Below are positions 25,516-26,960 of a stretch of 64,000 nt of DNA, piece by piece. A program made the translations under genes and the position numbers. Within the stretch, counting starts at the first letter, position 1, and each line of letters opens with the position of its first letter. Below the pieces are notes generated by a model. That model saw only the letters and a list, made by a program, of their open reading frames with translations. It was not told the origin of the DNA and did not search any database. Location: assembly GCF_009689005.1 (NCBI RefSeq), contig NZ_AP021879.1, forward strand, positions 558,001-622,000. The letters run 5' to 3'. Source of the stretch: Desulfosarcina ovata subsp. ovata. Lineage in GTDB: Bacteria; Desulfobacterota; Desulfobacteria; Desulfobacterales; Desulfosarcinaceae.

Positions 25516-25727
25516 TATTCAGGCTCCTTAAAAATTTTTCCAAAACATAATCGTCGCCAGCCCCAAGTCAAGTGTTTCGATATGCATCAACACAAATAAG
25601 AAAGCAAGCGTGGGTTCATTTGCCACCCGTCTGTAGCATGCTAAAAAGCAGTTGACAATATCCGGGATGAGTATGATATGAACAACAGTTCATGCAAAAC
25701 AGGAAATGATTGAAGACGGATTTACAG
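25516..25727. other. Untranslated region upstream of the aro leader
   Basis: Together with the leader and attenuator this makes a gap of 425 bases between the zinc-ribbon gene and the DAHP synthase. The first 130 bases show nothing recognisable. A candidate promoter follows at 25652-25680. Confidence 0.5.
25652..25680 (+). promoter_or_regulatory. Candidate promoter of the DAHP synthase leader
   Basis: A perfect TTGACA at 25652-25657 is followed 14-17 bases later by TATGATATG. The best -10 (TATGAT, 25672-25677) has a short 14-base spacer, while GATATG at 25675-25680 has 17. Transcription would start about 40 bases before the leader ORF. Confidence 0.45.
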
Positions 25728-25811
25728 ATGATGGTTTCAGCAAACGGGAAAATTCGGTTCTGGTGGTGGTGCTCCCTTAATGGGTGTGCCTGCTGGATCC
25801 CCTTTGCGTGA
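25728..25811 (+). CDS. Trp-rich leader peptide of the aro attenuator
   Basis: A 27-codon ORF (ATG 25728 or 25731, stop TGA 25809-25811) that includes KIRFWWWCSL: three consecutive Trp codons TGG at 25761-25769, plus another at 25794. The Trp run just before a terminator hairpin and a DAHP synthase is the layout of trp-type transcription attenuation, as in WWW-containing leaders of other bacteria. The ribosome-binding site is weak (GACGGA about 10 bases upstream). Confidence 0.72.
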   Translation: MMVSANGKIRFWWWCSLNGCACWIPFA

Positions 25812-25880
25812 AACCAAACCGGTTTCAAAAACAAACAAACGGACCTTCGGGCAAGCGCCCCGCGGTCCGTTTTTATTTTC
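25787..25880 (+). promoter_or_regulatory. Transcription attenuator: antiterminator and terminator hairpins
   Basis: Terminator: arms ACGGACC (25839-25845) and GGTCCGT (25864-25870), with an inner GC-rich stem, followed by a T-rich run to 25879. Antiterminator: TGCCTGCTGGATCC (25787-25800) can pair, with a bulge and two mismatches, to GGACCTTCGGGCA (25841-25853), which would block the terminator's 5' arm. A ribosome stalled on the Trp codons at 25761-25769 leaves the antiterminator arm free; one that reaches the stop at 25811 covers it. Expected outcome: low Trp-tRNA allows DAHP synthase transcription. Confidence 0.68.
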
Positions 25881-25940
25881 ATAGGGCCGTAAAAAGTGCC
25901 ACGCCATTTTAAGGTCCAACCCCCTTAAAGGAGGCAAACA

Positions 25941-26960
25941 ATGCTGGTCGTCATGGATGTTTCCGCTACACCGCAGCAAATCGAACAGGTGGTCAAGGTC
26001 ATTGAATCAAGAGGATGTACGGCGCGGCCCATTCCGGGCGGTGACCGGGTCTCCATTGGCGTATTGAACAACAGGGGACCTGTGGATGCGTCCATGTTCA
26101 TCGGTCTGCCCGGCGTCAAGGATGCGGTGCCCATCACCAAACCCTACAAACTGGTCAGCCGTGAAACCAAGGCAGGCGACACATTGATTCAGGTGGGCGA
26201 GGTGACCATCGGAAATGGTCATTTAACCATCATCGCCGGACCGTGTGCCATCGAGAGCGAGACACAGGCCATCACGATCGCCGGATATGTGAAAAAGGCC
26301 GGCGCACACCTGTTCCGTGGCGGGGCCTTCAAACCGCGTACATCGCCGTACTCTTTTCAAGGGCTTGGTGAGGAGGGACTCAAGATTCTGGCCAAGGTTC
26401 GCGAACGGACCGGAATGCCGGTGGTCACGGAAGTGATGGATTTTCCGACCTTTGATCAGGTGGAGCATTATTCTGATGTGCTTCAGATCGGAACCCGCAA
26501 CATGCAGAATTTCAGCCTGCTCAAACGGGCCGGCGAGTCCTACCGACCGATCCTGCTTAAACGGGGTATGGCCGCCACCATTGAGGAGTGGCTCATGGCC
26601 GCCGAATATATCATGGCCCAGGGTAACCATCAGGTGATCCTGTGCGAGCGCGGCGTGCGAACCTTTGTTCACCACAGCCGCAACACCCTGGACCTTTCCG
26701 CCGTGCCGGTGGTCAGGAAAGAGAGCCACCTGCCCATCATCGTCGACCCCAGTCATGCAGCCGGCCGGCGGGATCAGGTGCTGCCGTTGTCCCGGGCGGC
26801 GGTGGCGGCCAATGCCCATGGCCTCATGGTCGAGGTCCACCACCAGCCGGAAAAAGCGCTCAGTGACGGCGCCCAAAGCCTCTATCCGGACCAGTTCGAT
26901 ATCCTTTGCCGGCAGGTGACGGACATTTTTGCTGTTTCCGGCGGCCAGGAGCCGTTTTAG
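25941..26960 (+). CDS. aroF: 3-deoxy-7-phosphoheptulonate (DAHP) synthase, type I beta with regulatory N-domain
   Basis: Condenses phosphoenolpyruvate and erythrose 4-phosphate in the first step of aromatic amino-acid synthesis. The 339-residue protein has an N-terminal ferredoxin-like regulatory domain (1-70, MLVVMDVSATPQQIEQVVKV) as in Thermotoga and other type I beta enzymes. The barrel follows with TIIAGPCAIESE, GGAFKPRTSPYSFQG, QIGTRNMQNF, LLKRGM and the metal/PEP site IIVDPSHAAGRRD. The start has AAAGGAGG. It is preceded by a Trp-codon attenuator, so expression probably follows Trp-tRNA charging. A long inverted repeat follows its stop. Confidence 0.95.
   Translation: MLVVMDVSATPQQIEQVVKVIESRGCTARPIPGGDRVSIGVLNNRGPVDASMFIGLPGVKDAVPITKPYKLVSRETKAGDTLIQVGEVTIGNGHLTIIAGPCAIESETQAITIAGYVKKAGAHLFRGGAFKPRTSPYSFQGLGEEGLKILAKVRERTGMPVVTEVMDFPTFDQVEHYSDVLQIGTRNMQNFSLLKRAGESYRPILLKRGMAATIEEWLMAAEYIMAQGNHQVILCERGVRTFVHHSRNTLDLSAVPVVRKESHLPIIVDPSHAAGRRDQVLPLSRAAVAANAHGLMVEVHHQPEKALSDGAQSLYPDQFDILCRQVTDIFAVSGGQEPF

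Follow-up and report, generated by a model that had tools for sequence, protein, structure and literature searches.

Does tryptophan supply govern a DAHP synthase gene of Desulfosarcina ovata subsp. ovata through a translated leader, and if so, is the whole shikimate pathway metered in this way or only one of its branches? The question is raised by a short region ahead of such a gene in the 64,000-nucleotide stretch of DNA analysed here (the window). The original prediction, made from the letters alone, was a Trp-codon attenuator through which tryptophan would control entry to the entire pathway. Judging from the anatomy of the region, its conservation, the covariation of its terminator and the gene contexts of its relatives, the feature is very probably a ribosome-mediated Trp-codon attenuator of the classical trp-leader type, controlling a Trp-branch isozyme of DAHP synthase.

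The leader and its gene

The gene behind the leader encodes a type I-beta DAHP synthase, as had been predicted. The catalytic domain was found to match TIGR01361 at 395.6 bits (cut-off 267.75), NF006421 and PF00793 were also matched above cut-off, and the N-terminal ferredoxin-like domain matched PF18152 at 39.7 bits (cut-off 27). The next gene, typA/bipA, lies convergently on the opposite strand, so the DAHP synthase gene looks like a one-gene unit. The genome is a single contig of 7.63 Mb; it had been described as deltaproteobacterial in type, and rightly so, the nearest named relatives of the enzyme among the best 80 of 540 candidate loci being Desulfosarcina. When the genome was searched with the window protein, KdsA was the one further match, which had made the window enzyme appear to be the sole DAHP synthase; this was overturned by a PF00793 search, which located two type I-alpha DAHP synthases in addition to KdsA and the window gene, four places in all. 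No other type I-beta copy came up in the window-protein search, and neither a type II DAHP synthase nor an archaeal-type DHQ synthase was found in the genome.

The leader itself is a 27-codon ORF at 25728-25811 on the plus strand, with the translation MMVSANGKIRFWWWCSLNGCACWIPFA and its stop at 25809-25811. The three successive TGG codons of the original prediction are present at 25761, 25764 and 25767, and a fourth was observed at 25794. Just 5' of this ORF no clear Shine-Dalgarno sequence was seen, which counts against the attenuator reading; an alternative start in the same frame is the TTG at 25710, with AGGA at 25701. Features of the region are collected in Table 1.

Table 1. Features of the leader region and its gene, in window coordinates
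Feature	Position	Strand	Details and basis
Sigma-70-like promoter, TTGACA-17-GATATG	25652-25680	+	Motif position across leaders
Leader peptide ORF	25728-25811	+	27 codons, or more if translation begins at the in-frame TTG at 25710; leaders of relatives
Segments 1:2, pause/anti-antiterminator hairpin	25756-25800	+	Fold only
Three Trp codons, presumed sensing codons (fourth at 25794-25796)	25761-25769	+	
Segment 2, antiterminator 5' strand	25787-25800	+	Masked fold; 2:3 pairing in 60/61 nascent folds
T1, intrinsic terminator (segments 3:4)	25837-25879	+	Hairpin 25837-25872, U-tract 25870-25879; covariation in 36 aligned leaders
Segment 3, antiterminator 3' strand and terminator 5' arm	25841-25853	+	Window fold; folds of relatives
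Segment 4, core of T1 3' arm (gcggtcc)	25862-25868	+	Pairs with segment 5 at -13.1 kcal/mol
Segment 5 (gggccgt), complementary to segment 4	25884-25890	+	Similar pairing in relatives
T2, second hairpin, remnant without U-run in the window	25884-25917	+	Full terminator in L003, L004, L005, L007 and L008
Shine-Dalgarno GGAGG of the DAHP synthase gene	25930-25934	+	
Type I-beta DAHP synthase gene (ferredoxin-like and catalytic domains)	25941-26960	+	TIGR01361, NF006421, PF00793, PF18152

The promoter motif is widespread: TTGACA or TTGACT occurs within 190 nt 5' of the Trp codons in 52 of the 61 leaders described below, mostly at 79-119 nt. In the window, the palindrome ATGAAC-AACA-GTTCAT at 25678-25693 spans the -10 and start region and is a possible operator. 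The genome also contains a TrpR-like ORF (L210), so the promoter may be regulated too.

Folding had been proposed as a check, and RNA 25720-25890 was found to fold at -65.6 kcal/mol, more stably than its shuffles (z -3.92 against 200 of them). The 1:2 pause hairpin, computed for the window only, folds at -20.5 kcal/mol over 25755-25812. When the Trp codons were masked, which mimics a stalled ribosome, and the nascent RNA was ended at 25853, the fold consisted of exactly 25787-25800 paired with 25841-25853, reproducing the antiterminator originally drawn. The GC-rich terminator with a T-run, first placed at 25839-25879, was recovered as the intrinsic terminator T1 at 25837-25879. By itself the window's antiterminator is unexceptional (z -1.14, p 0.15), and conservation therefore carries the case for an attenuator. 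Once T1 is complete in the masked window RNA, the terminator is a better fold than the antiterminator, so the antiterminator must form first, as in the classical model. Addition of the second hairpin to the masked RNA moves the best fold from the terminator to the antiterminator plus a 4:5 pairing. Segment 5 is made after the polymerase has passed T1 and thus can hardly affect T1 in the window, where it is read as a remnant.

Ribosome stalling and the response to tryptophan, which we infer from this anatomy, would proceed along classical lines. Transcription would start near 25687, and a ribosome would translate the leader peptide behind RNA polymerase. With Trp-tRNA in short supply, the ribosome would stall at 25761-25769 and cover segment 1, whereupon the 2:3 antiterminator would form, T1 would be blocked and the gene would be transcribed. 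With Trp-tRNA plentiful, the ribosome would reach the stop codon and cover segment 2, so that T1 could form and transcription would end at about 25879.

Conservation and the branch probably under control

The comparison of leaders covered 92 upstream regions, made up of those of the best 80 of 540 candidate loci that include the gene start (L077 and L079 do not), the window, and 13 further loci from a second search. A Trp-containing leader with a terminator was counted in 61 of the 92, with anchors placed by hand after reading in 20 of these 61. The regions without a counted leader include Chloroflexi and Acidobacteria loci, four loci with trp genes upstream of the gene (L011, L015, L024 and L078) and three with too little sequence (L040, L046 and L050). 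The whole leader is absent in Desulfosarcina widdelii (L009) and a near relative (L095). In another Desulfosarcina assembly, the promoter at L006 (on the same contig as L091) runs straight into T2, with no leader or T1 in between, as though both had been deleted.

Codon runs and terminator pairing were each compared with controls. A blind count of short ORFs with at least three Trp codons in five, taken over the upstream regions of at least 270 nt, gave 43 of 89; the reverse strand gave 1, and 20 shuffled sets averaged 0.5, none of them exceeding 2. In a structural alignment of 36 of the 61 leaders, from which the rest, chiefly outliers, were left out, 91.4% of T1 cells were paired versus 22-53% when the arms were slid, and 30 cells had changed on both sides versus 8.3 in shuffles. 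Segments 2 and 3 were observed to pair, with at least five pairs, in 60 of 61 nascent folds with masked Trp codons; the 2:3 duplex surpassed the mean of its shuffles in 60 of 61, with p 0.05 reached in only 33 of 61, the window not among them. Tested in a fixed register, the antiterminator showed no significant covariation (70.0% paired versus 68.5% in shuffles, with 47 of 500 shuffles as high), and the register seems to shift between clades. Overall, the comparison of leaders that the original prediction had called for found the Trp codons and terminator kept in many relatives and T1 covarying, and Trp-codon attenuation of the window gene appears well supported on this comparative sequence basis.

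A covariance model of the leader (R1) was searched against 60 relatives. On the same strand and within 500 nt upstream, it matched at least 27 of 38 orthologues, these being places with at least 71% identity, or fragments thereof, that include the gene start, with the G010 fragment left out. The other 11 have no match just upstream among the matches listed. G018 and G028 among them show a weak leader by eye, G048 (L015) lies in a trp operon, and no leader was seen in seven, namely G002, G003, G005, G023, G035, G040 and G050, D. widdelii (L009) being included. G015 (L241) shows, by eye, hairpins and a short ORF in which one Trp codon occurs; this may be a leader in decay.

Where else does such a leader occur? 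Forty other R1 places were fetched among the matches listed, of which 31 precede trpE, four precede trpD and one a trpC-trpF stretch; L184 ends early, L194 matched no reference gene, and L198 and L199 are doubtful. The trp operon of the window's own genome (trpE, G, D, C and F, assigned by BLAST references and by eye) has the leader MQYRTKPHMEYRRPPQSWRWRNWCRFSVCRI. The gene itself was also found beside trp genes in the 80 loci, in counts that are minima, as flanks reached up to 3 kb and many were shorter: it is first in a unit continuing with trpE in at least 12 (L041, L044, L049, L051, L054 and L057-L063), divergent to trpE in at least 10 (L014, L017, L026, L030, L033, L037, L038, L042, L056 and L071) and downstream of trp genes in at least the four named above. 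The window's lone gene and its leader may be what is left of a former trp unit.

What, then, does the leader control, and by which means? The window enzyme catalyzes the first step of the common pathway and is the sole type I-beta copy found, in a genome where neither of the alternative enzymes searched for was found, all of which would suit the idea that tryptophan supply controls entry to the whole shikimate pathway. This part of the original prediction fails on the two additional type I-alpha DAHP synthases, one of which has its own Tyr/Phe leader, and on the ties of the gene to trp operons in relatives; control of the whole pathway is thus improbable. The same ties make the enzyme look like a Trp-branch isozyme, and from the genomic contexts the arrangement is best read as one in which tryptophan would govern a Trp-branch isozyme, whose gene several relatives carry within the trp operon or divergently to it. 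The leader could also or mainly act in trans, its terminated RNA or its peptide regulating other messages, as is reported for peTrpL of Sinorhizobium meliloti in the available text of PMC7298713. Residues after the Trp run are indeed similar within clades (GCACRIP, GCADRF, GGARLTG); however, this stretch is also antiterminator segment 2, which would explain its conservation, and action in trans is quite improbable here. Regulation by TrpR at the promoter, with the leader as a relic, would draw on the TrpR-like ORF of the genome, but many relatives retain the leader with its terminator and Trp codons, which makes this reading highly improbable.

Tandem terminators and leaders of other DAHP synthases

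The reading of the window leader as a Trp-codon attenuator extends, in many relatives, to a second terminator. A second hairpin with a U-run (T2) was found 2-14 nt behind T1 in 35 of the 61 leaders, eight T1 and five T2 hairpins of this tandem set having been placed by eye. Segment 4, on the 3' side of T1, is able to base-pair with segment 5, on the 5' side of T2. Duplication of a terminator would by itself predict a 3:6 pairing as strong as 4:5, and 3:6 therefore serves as the control. The 4:5 pairing was the stronger in 31 of 35 DAHP synthase (aroF) leaders, in 24 of 29 tandem trp leaders (36 scanned; L167, with a wrong hairpin pair, counted against) and in 6 of 8 tandem I-alpha leaders (L218, with a wrong first hairpin, counted against; L233 was read in the wrong frame in the I-alpha scan), all of these being counts over related, not independent, sequences in a test chosen after the pattern had been seen. 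Pairing in cis (-17.0 kcal/mol) exceeded pairing in trans (-15.0 kcal/mol) only weakly, a third of the trans partners being better.

Could T1 and T2 simply be a duplicated strong terminator, with the 4:5 complementarity as a by-product? For the tandem form, this is possible though on balance unlikely. The arms of T1 and T2 are often similar in sequence, the advantage of cis over trans pairing is only modest, and 3:6 is stronger or nearly equal in five loci, stronger in L058, L059, L060 and L070. Against duplication alone stand the excess of 4:5 over 3:6 in 31/35 and 24/29 leaders, and the observation that T2 still matches a T1 of unlike sequence (-12.8 versus -11.4 in L016). On the preferred reading, one ribosome-controlled switch could open both terminators. 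In relatives with T2, formation of 2:3 would free segment 4 to pair with segment 5, blocking T2 as well, whereas formation of T1 would leave T2 free to catch leak-through. This would be a six-segment chain resembling the his type, 2:3 plus 4:5 against 3:4 plus 5:6, of which the window has the 4:5 complementarity, without a U-run on the second hairpin; T2 would have decayed in the window's genome, with only the 4:5 pairing left. The role assigned to 4:5 is what we infer from these pairing strengths.

Similar designs with Tyr/Phe codons appear to serve the other DAHP synthases of these bacteria. One of the two I-alpha genes in the window's genome (L207, genome 4483000-4486500) was found to have a terminator and a Tyr/Phe-codon leader, MLQAAAPRTSYYGFYFYYCRGAPVDC, the ORF ending in YYGFYFYYCRGAPVDC and a stop; upstream of the second (L208) no leader was visible. 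Among relatives (L211-L240), a short ORF in which four or more of eight codons are aromatic was found at 27 of 30 I-alpha loci, a count without a shuffle control, and the runs of 26 I-alpha leaders contain TAT 81, TAC 28, TTT 47, TTC 20 and TGG 5 times. The model R1 also matched upstream of at least five I-alpha genes. A second, fused DAHP synthase of about 620 aa has a Phe-rich leader, such as FFSGCFFFSFRSIHPVV, in seven of nine loci (L120 and L123-L128), with a shorter aromatic-rich ORF in L121 and none in L122; its prephenate dehydratase domain was confirmed in L120, and the other fused loci were assigned by length and similar C-termini. A further DAHP synthase (L129, in G034) has the Tyr-rich leader CYYFYYSYEATRPLAFDP.

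The window's genome also contains an aroQ-pheA cluster (L209), with a chorismate mutase-prephenate dehydratase followed by aroE-, aroA- and aroC-like ORFs; these ORFs were named by eye and the PDT domain was taken from a domain search. Upstream of position 2163 of L209, the cluster has the Phe/Tyr leader MFHFFTGSYFCFYYFSKGLPGAR and two terminator-like hairpins.

These observations lead to a broader proposal, to which we give about even chances: that one order of sulfate reducers divides the first aromatic step by codon-coded attenuators, with Trp codons for the type I-beta enzyme and the trp operons, Tyr/Phe codons for the type I-alpha enzymes and the pheA cluster, and Phe codons for the DAHP synthase-prephenate dehydratase fusion. 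The full form of such an attenuator would be the six-segment chain, in which one ribosome-controlled decision serves two successive terminators.

Relation to known systems

In E. coli, TyrR, TrpR and allostery link each of the isozymes AroF, AroG and AroH to a single aromatic amino acid; here, codon-specific leaders seem to make that link. The leader of the his operon has six segments, A-F, that form a chain of alternative hairpins in which only E:F is a terminator, whereas here, in relatives, both 3:4 and 5:6 carry U-runs. The E. coli trpL leader combines a short ORF and adjacent Trp codons with alternative 1:2, 2:3 and 3:4 pairings and an intrinsic terminator. The window leader shares the short ORF, the adjacent Trp codons and the intrinsic terminator with the trpL attenuators of Proteobacteria and Actinobacteria, and would probably share their alternative pairings. 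Unlike in trpL, its target is a DAHP synthase gene, and relatives often have a second terminator linked by 4:5.

Leader attenuators of trp genes in Actinobacteria are described in the available text of PMC1262725. For Shewanella, structured elements are predicted before the Trp-sensitive aroH ('possible transcription termination') and before aroF ('attenuator sensing tyr-tRNA') in the available text of PMC2659441, in which no Trp-codon leader is shown for the aroH element; the lineage also differs from that of the window. In Corynebacterium glutamicum, again of a different lineage, a putative attenuator leader peptide containing Phe-Tyr-Phe precedes the DAHP synthase gene aroF, so far as the accessible part of PMC4046766 goes, and would sense Phe/Tyr where the window leader would sense Trp. 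Tandem terminators with a potential antiterminator occur in the rimP leader as well, which has no leader-peptide sensor in the portion of PMC2965389 at hand. A search of Rfam gave nothing at gathering score in the window; relaxing the threshold to E 10 brought up only four matches at 25640-25945, all unrelated and at chance level, with no trp leader family among them. The literature searched turned up no DAHP synthase gene preceded by a Trp-codon leader, though older comparative work may report one. The mechanism is known; the Trp target, the division of isozymes between leaders of different codons and the chain of two terminators look new within that literature, with the Shewanella and C. glutamicum cases reserved.

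What do these leaders mean for the biology of the group? They are an example of a trp leader staying with a gene apart from the operon, and they constitute a natural codon-swap experiment, since similar leaders with different sensing codons precede genes whose enzymes catalyze the same reaction within one cell. The design in which one antiterminator would disarm two terminators is testable. Overall, these leaders suggest how RNA can meter a branched pathway for which E. coli relies on repressors and allostery.
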